Source: Candidatus Methanocorpusculum faecipullorum
Lineage (GTDB): Archaea; Halobacteriota; Methanomicrobia; Methanomicrobiales; Methanocorpusculaceae
Assembly: GCA_018883755.1 (NCBI GenBank)
Contig: JAHLFR010000032.1
Coordinates: 1-34,529 of the forward strand
Direction: 5' to 3'
DNA: 34,529 nucleotides
Shown: positions 2,260 to 30,736 of the stretch, piece by piece
Numbering within the stretch: the stretch's first letter is position 1
Layout of the letters: each line of letters begins with the position of its first letter
Translations under genes and position numbers: made by a program
The notes under the pieces: model-generated
Seen by the model: only the letters and a program-made list of their open reading frames with translations
Databases searched by the model: none
Told to the model about the DNA's origin: nothing

Positions 2260-3147
2260 TTAGGCCTCCGCAGTGTAGGGTCCGTAGTTCTTGCGTGCCC
2301 ACTTCTCAACATAACGGTCAAGGATCGCGAAGAGAAGGATGATAACAACACCAACAACAACTGCTCCCCATCCATTCCAGGTGTGCTCAAAGAGGACGGT
2401 ACGCCACAGTTCAAAGAACACGATCAGACCGAAACAGAGACCAGATGCTGGTCCACCAAGTTTTGCGGTGAAGAAACCGTTGTCGATCGAACTTCTCTGA
2501 CCAGCCTCTGCATAACGGACAATGTTACCGGATGCAGAAATCGGGACACCAGCACCAAACTTCTGGTTCTGGTACTGACGCTCCTTACCATAGTACGGGT
2601 TTCCGGTTGCGGAACCTGCTGCACCAAGAGCAAGACCCCATACAATACCAAGAAGTGGAAGTGAGAACGGGTGGTTGAGTACAGTTGCCATCAGGTAACA
2701 TGCGGTTACCGTGGTGAAGATTGCAACAAATGCATGACCCATGGTTACAGTCGTTACTGACTTTAACACATCAATAAAGACCGGCTGTCCGAACTTGGAG
2801 AGACTTGCAGTTCTTCCAAGGTATGCAGTGGTAGCATAGATACCCTGCACAAAGGTTGCGAGAACTGTACCAAAGATGATTGCCAGTACTGCGTTGACAT
2901 GCAACATCATGAATGCCCATGCAATACCGCAAGCAAGGGTTACCCACAGGGTATATGCTGGGGGCTCACCGGATACTGCTTTGTTGTAGATACGGTGAGT
3001 ATAGCCCATCTGAGGTGCGAGCTGGACCTGAGAGTTCGGGTCACCCTGTGATCCGATGTTGGACTCAGTATCCTCGGCTGCACCTGCAACCGCTGCGAGA
3101 GCTCCCGCAAGGGCAGTTACTCCAATGCCGATAATAATTTCTTGCAT
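2260..3147 (-). CDS. mtrE: Tetrahydromethanopterin S-methyltransferase subunit E
   Basis: This is MtrE, 295 residues, the first gene of the mtr operon and an integral membrane subunit of the Na+-pumping methyltransferase. The segment NSQVQLAPQMGYTHRIYNKA near residues 40-57 followed by SGEPPAY is a family signature, and RYAEAGQRSSIDNGFF near residue 215 matches the conserved NIVRYGE region. About six membrane helices are evident. The start is the ATG at 3147 preceded by GGGAG; a longer frame from 3213 would start inside the hairpin-rich leader and has no family support. Expression is probably set by the unusual leader upstream. Confidence 0.95.
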   Translation of the reverse strand: MQEIIIGIGVTALAGALAAVAGAAEDTESNIGSQGDPNSQVQLAPQMGYTHRIYNKAVSGEPPAYTLWVTLACGIAWAFMMLHVNAVLAIIFGTVLATFVQGIYATTAYLGRTASLSKFGQPVFIDVLKSVTTVTMGHAFVAIFTTVTACYLMATVLNHPFSLPLLGIVWGLALGAAGSATGNPYYGKERQYQNQKFGAGVPISASGNIVRYAEAGQRSSIDNGFFTAKLGGPASGLCFGLIVFFELWRTVLFEHTWNGWGAVVVGVVIILLFAILDRYVEKWARKNYGPYTAEA

Positions 3148-3475
3148 GTAAGATTCTCCCTTGAGTTTGCGTGCACGAGTTTTACAACTCGTACTGCACC
3201 TGATCACCTTCACGGTGTCAGGGCTAACGTTTCCTTATCGGAAACGAAAGTATTGTTCCAGTGAAAGCCACCCAAATAGGGCCGCCACAGACTGAAACGA
3301 AGGATGCGTCTCAAGTAGCTGCACGATTTAATGTCGTGCAGACGTCTCGGGAGTCGTAATGACTCATGGATAATTCACAGTCATTCACACGTGAAATGAC
3401 GTGAACGTTCGAATAACGTTACCACTCTAAAGAATGGAGTACAAAGTGTGGACAGTAAATTGTTTGCAGGGAGTG
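3148..3475 (-). promoter_or_regulatory. Hairpin-dense leader of the mtr operon
   Basis: No gene is seen here. The stretch carries a chain of short inverted repeats that would fold as consecutive stem-loops in the mtr transcript. Clear ones are 3171-3199 (5+6 bp, GUAA tetraloop on the minus strand), 3199-3222 (5+4 bp with one bulged base), 3228-3246 (7 bp), 3255-3298 (8 positions, one mismatch), 3319-3341 (8 bp), 3351-3365 (5 bp), 3388-3403 (5 bp), 3404-3420 (6 bp) and 3424-3440 (4 bp). The chain ends about 10 bases before the mtrE ribosome binding site. Transcription as a leader is inferred from orientation. Confidence 0.6.
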
Positions 3476-3491
3476 GTATATTAATGTATAC
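3476..3491 (-). promoter_or_regulatory. Candidate mtr promoter element (palindromic TATA-like site)
   Basis: The sequence GTATA-6 nt-TATAC is a perfect inverted repeat in an AT-rich stretch and would serve as a TATA-like element on the minus strand, placing a transcript start near 3450, exactly where the hairpin chain begins. Other AT-rich candidates lie upstream near 3608-3622, 3645-3652 and 3708-3718, so the assignment is tentative. The symmetry could equally reflect a regulator site. Confidence 0.35.
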
Positions 3492-3775
3492 GAAAAATCG
3501 TCGAAGAGGTGTTCTTTGATCGATGATTTTATCCGAATTTTCAACCGATTACACTAAATTATTTGAGTTATCAATAAACCCCTTTCCAAACACAAGTAAA
3601 TTTTACCACACATAAATATTATTTTGTTAAAAATACATCTATAAGACCTTTGTTGTCAGATAAAAATCAATTTCTGTTGGACAATCTGGCCAGAAAAAGG
3701 ATGATTCTTTATATAGCTAACTACCCTCCGCTGAAAAAGAACAAACATTCGCGCGGTTAGAATAACGACAGATGT
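3492..3775. other. AT-rich intergenic region between mcrA and the mtr promoter
   Basis: No credible gene is present. The region is very AT-rich and holds several TATA-like strings, including a perfect TTTATATA at 3708-3715 reading on the plus strand. The mcr transcript probably ends at its upper edge and the mtr transcript probably starts at or near its lower edge. Confidence 0.5.
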
Positions 3776-3787
3776 AAAAAAAGAAAA
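3776..3787 (-). terminator. Poly-T terminator after mcrA
   Basis: On the minus strand a run of T broken by a single C (TTTTCTTTTTTT) begins about 24 bases after the mcrA stop. Archaeal transcription commonly ends at such T tracts without a strong hairpin. It separates the mcr and mtr transcripts. Confidence 0.55.
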
Positions 3788-3810
3788 TGGGCTTATCACC
3801 CTGGACAGAT

Positions 3811-5517
3811 TTACTGTGCCGGGATGATAAGTGAGCGTTCGCCTGCTGGCATGAACTCGCGGATAGCTCCCTTTGCGAACTCCTTTCTCGGGTTTGCAAA
3901 GTCGAACTTGAGTGCGGGGTCTGCGAAGCAGATCTTGATAAGCGGGGACAGTGCCCATGCGTCACCACGACCAATGTGAGCAGATGCAACGATTGCTGCG
4001 TACTCACCCTGGTGACCGACGTTCATTGCGTAGTTCGGGTAGTTCGGTCCACGGAACTCACCAATACAACCCTCATCAGGTCTGATGGAGAGCGAGTTTG
4101 CGGAACCGCACTGGTCCTGCAGGTCGTAGCCGAAGAATCCAAGTCTGGACCATCCATCTTTGTGCATAAGCATGGAGAGGTACCAGGCGTTGAGACCAGC
4201 GTTGGAGTTACCGGTTGCGATGGAGGTGGTAGTACCACATGCTGCTGCAAGAACTGCTGCACGCTGGGAACCGCCGAAGTGGTCTTCCATCATAGTCGGG
4301 AACTGCTCGTACTGCTCCATACCATAGAGGTTGACTTCAGTACCGATGTCGTTGACAACTTCCTGGGTCGGCTTGACTTTGTCGTTCGGGTTCGGGTTGG
4401 TAACATCGACCTTGTATTTGTCGTGGATGTAGTCCATACCGTGGTAGACAAAGTCATCAAGGACGTTATCGGTGTATGCTGCGGTTGCATACTGGGTAAA
4501 TCCGACACCACCAGACATGTAGGAACCAAGCCAGATCTGGTCGAACAGAACTGCTCCTGCACCGACAACTTCAAGGGTTGCCTTTGCCGGGTCGTTCGGG
4601 TTGACACGGTCTGCCTGAATCATATCGGCAAAGTTGCCGAAGAGAATTCCTCCTGGCTCATTCGGACCACGTGCACGGCGTGCCGGCAGGTGGGATGCCA
4701 TGTTGATGACACCAGCGTGCTTTGCTGCGAAGGACAGGTCAGCGACTGCTGCTTCACCAGCGCACATGCGGTATGCTGCAATGAAGGACATACCGATCTG
4801 CATTGCAGACCAGCGGGAGGTCGTTCCACCATCACAGGTACGGCCAACGATGGTCGGCATGTGGACACACTGCCACAGGGACTTGCCAACAGCTGCCTGG
4901 AGGGCCTCTGCCTGCTTCTTGGGGAAGAGCTTCTCAATGTCGATGACGTACTGGGACTCGATAGAGTCTGCGAGTTCCTGGTCACCAGTAAAGACACGGA
5001 CGTAACAGTCGTCGGTTAAAGCCGGGTGGGTCTCAACCATGTGTTCCTGAACGACTGCTCCTCCGGGCATTGCATGGTTGACAATGTGGAGATACTCAGA
5101 AATGGTTTCCGGGGTAACTTCCTTGCCAAGACGCTTCTGCAGGGTGGAGTGGGCCATGTCCATGGACACGATTACAGTTCTGCGGATATCATCCCAGAAC
5201 TGCTGCATTGCTGCATTGTTAACGAAGTGCAGATCATCACCCTCAACGAAGGTTCCGGTTCCGGAGACTTCGTAGGTCATGAGCTGACGCTGACCCATCG
5301 GGACACCTGCAAGGTGGCAGTGGTCTGGGTCGTACATGGAGATTCCTCTCTTTGCAACGATTGCCTCGTTCTCTTTGAGGAATTCGGTCTTACGTGCAGA
5401 CTGGTGAATACCGTTGAACTTGTAGAATTCAGTGGTGGTGGACTCAACATCCTGCTTGGGGAACTTCTGCTTGAGTGCTTCAAGGAAAAGTTTCTGGGTC
5501 TTTTCTACTTTTGCCAT
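3811..5517 (-). CDS. mcrA: Methyl-coenzyme M reductase alpha subunit
   Basis: McrA is the large catalytic subunit of MCR, which converts methyl-CoM and CoB to methane and the heterodisulfide using nickel cofactor F430. At 568 residues it is full length. Key sites are visible: Gln157 in AVVQEHM (axial F430 nickel ligand), His267 in AAKHAG and Arg281 or Arg283 in [12 protein letters not shown] (modified residues in known MCRs), Tyr343 in [12 protein letters not shown] (substrate pocket), Gln418 in FGGSQRA, and Gly463, Asp468 and Cys470 in [11 protein letters not shown], the thioglycine region. It is the last gene of mcrBDCGA, 5 bases after mcrG. FFGY rather than FYGY before the thioglycine is not a defect. 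Confidence 0.99.
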
Positions 5518-8793: not shown

Positions 8794-9020
8794 AATTTTT
8801 TCCTCTGAATAATGATTTCATTGGCTTTGCGCCGCATGGTTACCATGCGCCGCGTAATTTTCCGTTACTTTCACTGAATAACACTGGAAACTGCTAATAG
8901 AGAATTGTTGGTTTTGTCAGTGACGGTTGTTTTGGCACAATTGCGCAAACAGTTCTAAGGGTTACCCAAAGAATGTTCACACGTCCCCCTCTCGGGACAT
9001 TGAAATGTATCTTTGTGTCG
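8794..9020 (-). promoter_or_regulatory. Leader of the mcr operon with stem-loops
   Basis: No gene is seen. If the TATA box at 9021-9030 is used, transcripts start near 8998 and carry a leader of about 205 bases. It includes a strong hairpin at 8829-8853, a palindrome GGGTTACCC at 8959-8967, a 5-bp stem GTCCC/GGGAC at 8983-8998 and a longer-range pair TCACTG (8871-8876) with CAGTGA (8918-8923). Long leaders of methanogenesis genes are known from other methanogens; the leader here is inferred from the TATA box. Confidence 0.5.
8829..8853 (-). promoter_or_regulatory. Stem-loop upstream of mcrB
   Basis: Left arm 8829-8839 pairs with right arm 8843-8853 (ten pairs, one mismatch at 8832/8850) around a 3-base loop. 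On the transcript it reads GCGGCGCATGG-TAA-CCATGCGGCGC. It ends about 35 bases before the mcrB start codon. A closely similar sequence occurs before rpl3 (30439-30470). Confidence 0.6.
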
Positions 9021-30160: not shown

Positions 30161-30736
30161 GTGTTAATCAGTCCTTAATACTGTGGTCTCTTCGTTCCTT
30201 TGGGAAGGAGAGACGTCTGCTGTGGTTGTCAATTATTAAACAACCGTTCTTTCACCATCAGCCTGCGATATTGCAAATCGCCTTCGACCATGGGACGTAC
30301 ATTCTAGTGTCGGTCTCCGCTCTCTGTGCAGATGCACAGATGCTTAGAAGACGGAAAGACGGGTAGCAATTGATCCATTAGGATATCCGCATGAACGACA
30401 ACGTCTTGTCTGTTCTTGTGGTTTTTATGCCCGAATGACGCATGTTACATGCGCGCCGCACAGTTGCGGCTTTCCAAGTCTCACGTAAGAGAACCTGACA
30501 GTTCACGCGCTCTTTGGTTTTCACAAAGAATGGGCTCGTCCTGCTGACGTTCGCCCTGCGCGCTTCATCAGACCTATTGAGGTCTTAATCCTTTGCGGGA
30601 TTTCCCACAAAAGGGTTACACGATAATGAAAACATCGACAGAATCTGCGTGTTTTCAAACCAACTGGATATCCACGATACACAGCAGCTATGCTGATATC
30701 AGCCTATGAAGGCTTCACTATTATTGGAAGAGTGAG
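30161..30736 (-). promoter_or_regulatory. Hairpin-dense region upstream of rpl3
   Basis: No gene is seen in this gap. It contains a chain of short inverted repeats: 30186-30214 (GTCTC/GAGAC outer, TTCC/GGAA inner), 30224-30245 (6 bp), 30265-30281 (5 bp), 30323-30340 (7 bp, 4-base loop), 30397-30410 (5 bp), 30439-30453 (6 bp), 30455-30470 (6 bp), 30479-30492 (4 bp), 30511-30529 (6 bp), 30570-30585 (6 bp), 30590-30614 (5 bp plus GGGA/TCCC core), 30628-30656 (7 bp plus inner stem) and one near 30701-30715 (AGCCT/AGGCT). It may be one long rpl3 leader or a leader plus a separate small RNA. Transcription is not proven by the sequence. Confidence 0.55.

Follow-up and report, generated by a model that had tools for sequence, protein, structure and literature searches.

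On the minus strand of the 34,529-nucleotide stretch of DNA analyzed here (the window, to whose first letter all positions refer), mcrA ends at position 3811 and mtrE starts at position 3147, and the region between them, on the mtr message, is structured. What is this region, and what does it do for the genes that follow? The coupling of methyl transfer with a sodium gradient by Mtr is a key step at which methanogenesis conserves energy. A conserved RNA heading the mtr message throughout an order would offer a testable way into the post-transcriptional setting of that step, about which, to our knowledge, little is known in archaea. The original prediction, made from the letters of the window, read positions 3171-3440 as a chain of nine or so stem-loops that controls or stabilizes the mtr message or yields a small RNA.

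A hairpin chain upstream of mtrE

The window belongs to a 1.25-Mb genome of the Methanocorpusculum kind, about 80% complete. The MtrE encoded there shares 98% identity with its M. petauri counterpart, and Pfam searches confirmed McrA, McrB, MtrE, MtrD, MtrC, and MtrB. The mtr transcript is predicted to start at position 3453, downstream of a TATA-like box (Table 1); passages of PMC11409679 place Methanosarcina transcript starts about 23 bp downstream of the TATA box. The interval originally given is slightly too short for the feature, which extends from position 3453 to position 3148. Just upstream of the TATA-like box is an 11-bp inverted repeat (positions 3494-3530, 91% complementary, 15 nt between the arms), which could serve a regulator or mark where the mcr transcript ends.

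Table 1. Features of the mtr leader and its surroundings, in window coordinates, from the promoter to the gene
Feature	Positions	Strand	Evidence
TATA-like box TTAATATA, predicted mtr promoter	3477..3484	-	sequence read directly; 23 nt separate the box from position 3453
mtr leader RNA, 306 nt, spanning predicted start (GUCCACAC...) through the base preceding the mtrE AUG	3148..3453	-	fold z score, clade-A alignment
S1 hairpin CCAUUC/GAGUGG, in near-invariant 5' domain (about 3419-3453)	3422..3437	-	RNAalifold, clade A and compact group separately
S1b hairpin AACGUU...AACGUU	3404..3420	-	perfect stem; RNAalifold keeps 3 pairs in clade A
90-nt clade-A-specific insertion carrying S2, S3, and S4	3317..3406	-	BLAST gap, mtrE tree
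S2 hairpin UUCAC...GUGAA	3374..3405	-	94.4% of cells paired in counted part
S3 hairpin GAGUC/GACUC	3351..3365	-	6/6 clade-A leaders; stem invariant, loop free
S4 hairpin CUGCACGA/UCGUGCAG	3319..3341	-	6/6 clade-A leaders
ACUUGAG, predicted 5' arm of long-range helix closing the 3' domain	3310..3316	-	RNAalifold, clade A and compact group
Conserved joiner ending CAUCCUUC	3299..3309	-	CATCCTTCGTTTC in 18/18 genus leaders
S5 hairpin GUUUCAGU...ACUGGAAC	3255..3298	-	18/18 genus leaders; outer five pairs kept in all
S6 hairpin CGUUUCC/GGAAACG	3228..3246	-	6/6 clade-A leaders
S7 hairpin CCUGACACC/GGUGAUCAGG	3199..3222	-	pair 7 varies across 6 clade-A leaders
S8 hairpin adjoining the gene, loop GUAA here	3173..3194	-	counted positions all paired in 6 clade-A leaders
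CUCAAG (3160-3165, 3' arm of closing helix) running into ribosome-binding site GGAG (3156-3159)	3156..3165	-	AACTCAAGGGAGA in 18/18 leaders
mtrE, first gene of the mtr operon	2260..3147	-	PF04206, E = 6.8e-128

When positions 3144-3455 were folded as RNA at 37°C, the mtr strand had a z score of -6.13 and the opposite strand one of -5.94, and none of 100 shuffles is as low on either strand. When both strands of the window were scanned in 300-nt tiles with 25 shuffles each, the three lowest z scores among 458 tiles fell in the leader stretch, whose fourth tile ranked sixth. Perfect stems of at least 6 bp closing loops of 4 to 7 nt gave 6 matches here (two of the four stems being counted twice) against a mean of 0.32 in 2,000 dinucleotide shuffles, two of which also reached 6, and only the tile at 3151 reached that number among 381 tiles of 270 nt in the window. 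A chance origin is rejected by these shuffles and tile scans. All four perfect stems of the original prediction are present above chance: those of S1b (6 bp, loop of 5), S4 (8 bp, loop of 7), and S6 (7 bp, loop GAUAA), together with the one nearest the gene, which has 7 bp and the loop GUAA as described and occupies positions 3175-3192 instead of 3176-3191. Nine hairpins could be placed (S1, S1b, and S2 to S8), matching the number foreseen, and the pentaloops GUGAA and GAUAA are found in S7 and S6, as had been stated.

Conservation and growth of the leader within Methanocorpusculum

The genus comparison comprised 18 leaders including that of the window (a nineteenth genome with an mtrE match, G008, is split over contigs and was left out). 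They measure 147 to 381 nt and were treated as clade A (n = 6, 284 to 381 nt), which the mtrE tree recovers as a single supported branch (96/92), and a compact group (n = 12, 147 to 197 nt), which forms two branches of that tree and need not be a single clade. Most hairpins are conserved in structure. Counterparts of all nine occur in every clade-A leader, and S3, S4, S6, S7, and S8 are paired at all counted positions in all six despite differing loops. Pair 7 of S7 is A-U, G-U, or G-C among these leaders, pair 4 of S8 changes from C-G to U-A in G015, the seven counted pairs of S4 vary solely between Watson-Crick and G-U, and the sequence of S1 hardly varies. The inner pairs of S5 change on both sides between species (A-U, U-G, G-C), with at least one unpaired inner position in 7 of 18 rows. 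At the place of S6, the compact group has a hairpin of its own (S6B, UUCC.GA/UC.GGAA) with G-C, U-G, or U-A at pair 5, and at the counterpart of S1b RNAalifold finds a 3-pair CGU/ACG hairpin after GGUAA.

Compensatory changes between relatives are accordingly found in S5, S6B, S7, and S8, which bears out the proposal of a conserved, structured RNA in the mtr leader. The same proposal had pointed to a GNRA tetraloop nearest the gene, and the comparison does not support this loop as a meaningful feature: the S8 loop is of the GNRA class in only three of the six clade-A leaders (GUAA, GCAA, GAGA) and is GUAC or A-rich in the other three, and for the same reason we rejected the loop as a docking element.

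Statistical support differs between the two alignments of the genus, both counted with RNAalifold's short UCC/GGA helix omitted. In A3 (compact group, nine distinct rows; a CCU/AGG helix was also omitted), none of 500 shuffles reaches the percentage of cells paired, the number of cells changed on both sides, or the covariation score; for pairs changed on both sides the observed number is reached by 225 of them, and for further pair types by 66. Covariation evidence is weak in A2 (six rows, with S7 misaligned by MAFFT in two), as 65 of 500 shuffles reach its covariation score and 261 its number of pairs changed on both sides.

The arms also indicate which strand is under selection. Counted over distinct arm pairs in the mtr sense, with only the five outer pairs of S5 taken in, the tally is 148 Watson-Crick, 16 G·U, and 0 A·C cells; the search expressions fixed part of each arm, and all leaders of the respective group matched them (6, 6, 6, 6, 6, 18, and 12 rows). 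Since G·U in the mtr sense would be A·C on the opposite strand, the selected molecule is, on this evidence from the arms, an RNA of the mtr sense.

Other parts scarcely change. The first ~36 bases (GUCCACACUUUGUACUCCAUUCUUWAGAGUGGUAACGUU) have single-position differences only in the 18 genus leaders, and CUUGAGA, CAUCCUUCGUUUC, AACUCAAGGGAGA, and UCUUACAUG each occur in all 18. Around the 3' hairpins, RNAalifold predicts, independently in the two groups, a closing pairing of ACUUGAG (positions 3310-3316) with CUCAAG (positions 3160-3165), and, again in clade A and the compact group separately, pairing between the ribosome-site GGA and the first UCC of the leader. Because neither pairing ever varies, both remain predictions beyond the reach of covariation.

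The chain has grown by insertion. BLAST pieces from the compact group stop at position 3407 and resume at position 3316 (e.g., G003, G011, G014, and G016), and the block between (3317-3406) is absent from the four Methanocalculus-genus leaders read; judged from the BLAST gap and the mtrE tree, it is a clade-A insertion. G015 (Candidatus Methanorbis basalitermitum) carries about 100 extra bases inside S2, and at the same place G024, on a different branch, bears a hairpin insertion of its own. Set against the kept core, these three additions indicate that much of the chain is an enlargement of a smaller leader. The insert of G015 (leader L042) is GC-rich and hairpin-like, with GCCTGCC repeats. 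Because the leader has gained hairpins while its core was kept, comparison allows core and dispensable parts to be separated. By analogy, rRNA expansion segments, in which lineage-specific hairpins are inserted at a few places in a kept core, follow the same core-plus-insertions pattern, although the mtr case concerns an mRNA leader and is much smaller.

The compact leader across Methanomicrobiales

mtrE was detected in 171 of the 232 genomes of the order. The 99 leaders read from outside the genus, carrying all six family labels (f1 to f6), are 54 to 92 nt long and, by eye, start with GAACC or a variant of it, roughly as far from the TATA box as a transcript start is expected to be. Leaders of f2, f3, and f5 mostly have a 5' hairpin of the AACC/GGUU type (AACCG/CGGUU, AACCA/UGGUU, or AAUCC/GGGUU), and most leaders of f4 and f6 have CCAC/GUGG around GAGU/ACUC or GGGU/ACUC. 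An arm CUCU or CUCC ahead of the ribosome site is kept in 91 of the 99 and missing from 8. RNAalifold recovers a ribosome-site hairpin and a start-codon hairpin from f3 and f5 together (22 leaders) and again from f2 (21 of 22). In these three families, the mtrE start codon sits inside a hairpin of upstream GAUGC(C) with GGCAUC in the mtrE codons, so that the hairpin extends into coding sequence (leaders L050-L054, L074-L080, L087-L096, and L098-L112).

In alignment A4, 97.2% of cells are paired and one pair is changed on both sides; 2 of 500 shuffles reach its covariation score and 427 its number of pairs changed on both sides. Among the f2 leaders, no pair is changed on both sides. RNAalifold yields no structure from the order-wide alignment A1, in our view because spacing differs between families; with a structure set by hand, 0 of 500 shuffles attain the percentage paired, 3 the covariation score, and 154 the count of pairs that change on both sides.

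A covariance model (R1) was built from 68 of the 99 leaders, its structure being set by eye, and searched with stricter filters that lose weak matches. At an E value of ≤0.05, it matches 155 of the 232 order genomes, namely, 153 of 207 outside the genus and 2 of 25 inside it (weak matches in G002 and G023); these figures count genomes with a match, and the leaders read were cut from upstream of mtrE. Matches occur in 150 of the 152 non-genus order genomes with a detected mtrE (none in G145 and G149), and in G181, G182, and G224, each without a detected mtrE, the match lies at a contig end. There is essentially one site per genome, the exceptions being G184, which has two mtrE copies, and G023.

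A search of the phylum under the same filters (392 genomes, E ≤ 0.01) matched 72 genomes, 69 of them in the order. The three outside it (G444, G355, and G327) are weak and none lies at mtrE (G355 has no detected mtrE), so we take them as chance and do not extend the leader beyond the order on their account. The match in G444 (C1:1974744-1974829, L167; E = 4.4e-4) is on the minus strand and directly precedes a gene on the plus strand, which we take from its sequence to be mer-like. The 20 mtrE upstream regions read outside the order differ in sequence from the leader, and some of them have inverted repeats close to where the message is predicted to start. By eye, these repeats (GCCAAAT...ATTTGGC and TAATTATGGAT...ATCCATAATTA; L173, L174, and L186 and L176 and L181) are unrelated in sequence.

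In all, 117 leaders were read ahead of mtrE (18 in the genus and 99 outside). That of the window is an enlarged form of the compact mtrE leader of Methanomicrobiales, and several hairpins of its chain are genus-specific additions to this order-wide leader.

Identity and possible functions

The leader matches no known RNA family: Rfam 15 gave no match to it at the gathering score and none at E ≤ 5 in positions 3100-3850, and none at E ≤ 1 in the upstream regions of 17 relatives outside the genus. The original prediction knew of no described element of this kind for mtr. Consistent with that statement, an open-literature search returned no paper on a structured mtr leader among the matches listed, and the main text of a 2010 survey of 104 candidate RNAs contains neither "methano" nor "mtr" (PMC2864571). 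Methanosarcina mtrE promoter-RBS parts are used in PMC11409679, where the passages on them make no statement on mtrE leader structure. Several familiar classes were rejected. A consensus scan of the mtr strand found no terminator-like site in positions 3000-3900, which speaks against a terminator or attenuator. Leader-peptide control was set aside in view of AUG starts, as 7 of the 18 genus leaders have no upstream AUG and the rest share no common AUG position. A mobile hairpin repeat was likewise rejected, a DNA search at E ≤ 0.001 having found no second copy in the leader's own, ~80% complete genome.

Structured 5' leaders as such are already known; this one stands out by its unusual gene and its unusual history of growth. 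Ribosomal protein leaders and their kin in Rfam (e.g., L4-Archaeoglobi) are structured 5' leaders of one operon ending at a ribosome-binding site and resemble the mtr leader in this respect, with a different gene and sequence.

We are confident that this is a conserved structured leader with some function. In the reading that we prefer, which we judge about evenly balanced between right and wrong, it would act in cis, setting and probably regulating the starts of mtrE translation and perhaps also protecting the message. The region is the 5' leader of the mtr operon mRNA, a structured RNA conserved in Methanomicrobiales. The compact version opens with a small terminal hairpin or stem, located at the predicted transcript start. 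Its last hairpin would pair the mtrE ribosome-binding site with an anti-Shine-Dalgarno arm, usually CUCU, and in three families a third hairpin would enclose the start codon as well. In Methanocorpusculum, the last hairpin would have turned into the long-range helix ACUUGAG/CUCAAG, touching the ribosome-binding site, around two to four hairpins, with more hairpins inserted upstream in some lineages. The leader would set, and probably regulate, how often ribosomes start on mtrE, and so probably tunes the amount of enzyme made; its 5' structure may shield the message too.

Of the readings considered, masking of the ribosome site, which belongs to the one that we prefer, draws on the largest share of the conserved parts. 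Folding energies bear on it unevenly. Relative to the shuffle mean, the ribosome site shows greater closure in 4/4 f3, 10/10 f4, and 17/18 f5 leaders, and its closure is not above that mean in 11/22 f2, 16/41 f6, 3/4 Methanocalculus-genus, and 16/18 Methanocorpusculum leaders, so that masking is least supported in the window's own genus. Given this pattern, in which f3, f4, and f5 show clear closure of GGAG and the remaining groups just named an unclear or opposite result, we put translational tuning at about even odds and regard message stabilization as a lesser prospect.

The leader might, as that lesser prospect has it, mainly stabilize the message, its terminal hairpin blocking 5'-to-3' decay and the chain shielding it from cleavage without any switch. 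The structure indeed begins at the predicted first bases, where f2, f3, and f5 mostly place their AACC/GGUU-type hairpins; inverted repeats near the predicted start recur in some of the 20 upstream regions outside the order; and hairpins have multiplied around a kept core, as expected if the extras are harmless or protective. The ompA-type 5' UTR of Escherichia coli, with its stabilizing hairpin at the extreme 5' end, is comparable in having further structure after that hairpin and in heading a highly used message, but in several families of mtr leaders the ribosome site and start codon join the structure. It is these elements, the anti-ribosome-site arm and the start-codon hairpin, that stabilization leaves unexplained, along with the invariant sequences of the 5' domain and joiner. 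Closer to hand, parts of PMC5378194 say that long 5' UTRs stabilize the mtaA and mtaC transcripts of a cold-adapted methanogen, a point in favor of stabilization, and predict a stem-loop masking the ribosome site of an Hsp20 gene in Methanolobus. These leaders are alike in being long and structured, with predicted masking of the ribosome site, and differ in the genes that they head and in the order to which their hosts belong; the main text of that paper has no occurrence of "mtr".

A more specific form of translational control would be an RNA switch common to the whole order, in which a conserved 5' segment and the ribosome-binding site compete for the ACUC(U) arm and a signal from the pathway sets the balance. 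We consider this unlikely, yet worth stating: if true, an archaeal regulatory RNA would govern a core energy-conserving operon, and Methanocorpusculum would have enlarged the switch by repeated insertion of hairpins around its kept core. Less likely again is a riboswitch proper, whose conserved 5' domain binds an Mtr-related ligand (for instance, a corrinoid, coenzyme M, a tetrahydromethanopterin compound, or sodium) and thereby moves the anti-ribosome-site arm. In f4 and f6, GAGU or GGGU can pair with the local ACUC or with that of the anti-ribosome-site arm, both being possible in 29 of 34 aligned leaders, and the 5' domain is near invariant in the 18 Methanocorpusculum leaders; a conserved 5' domain with a candidate alternative pairing is the likeness to translational riboswitches. 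Both copies of ACUC are conserved sequences, however, so such double complementarity comes cheap. The distal pairing is absent from 4/4 f1, 4/4 f3, 10/11 f5, and 8/15 f2 leaders of A1 and hence is not order-wide, the 5' domain differs between families beyond a short stem, and the single R1 site per genome, at one operon, is a further difference from translational riboswitches.

That single site would fit self-regulation of one operon, in which binding to the leader by a soluble Mtr subunit, or by some other protein, shuts or frees the ribosome site in the manner of ribosomal protein leaders; we consider such autogenous control improbable, as no kink-turn consensus (L7Ae) is kept in the leaders on inspection by eye, and no protein-binding motif was identified. 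A stable, conserved fold would also suit the precursor of a small RNA with targets elsewhere, which the original prediction had entertained and which we consider very improbable, given that the leader adjoins or contains the mtrE ribosome-binding site, stays with mtrE in all 117 leaders read, and had no second copy in the DNA search of its own genome. Hardly credible at all is that the palindromes act in DNA, as protein sites, a mobile repeat, or a terminator, with RNA irrelevant: the reverse strand folds almost equally well, but the counted stems hold G·U and no A·C cells in the mtr sense, and neither a further genomic copy (E ≤ 0.001) nor a terminator-like site on the mtr strand (positions 3000-3900) was found.

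Two observations elsewhere in the window concern other leaders. Its minus strand matches the L4-Archaeoglobi ribosomal protein leader (RF03135) at positions 30495-30571 (42.6 bits, gathering score 34.5), the host being a methanogen outside the group named in the title of that family. On the same strand, a GC-rich palindrome (GCGCATGGTAACCATGCGGCGC) at positions 8829-8850 lies 35 bases before the start of mcrB, and the mcr message may therefore likewise carry a structured leader.
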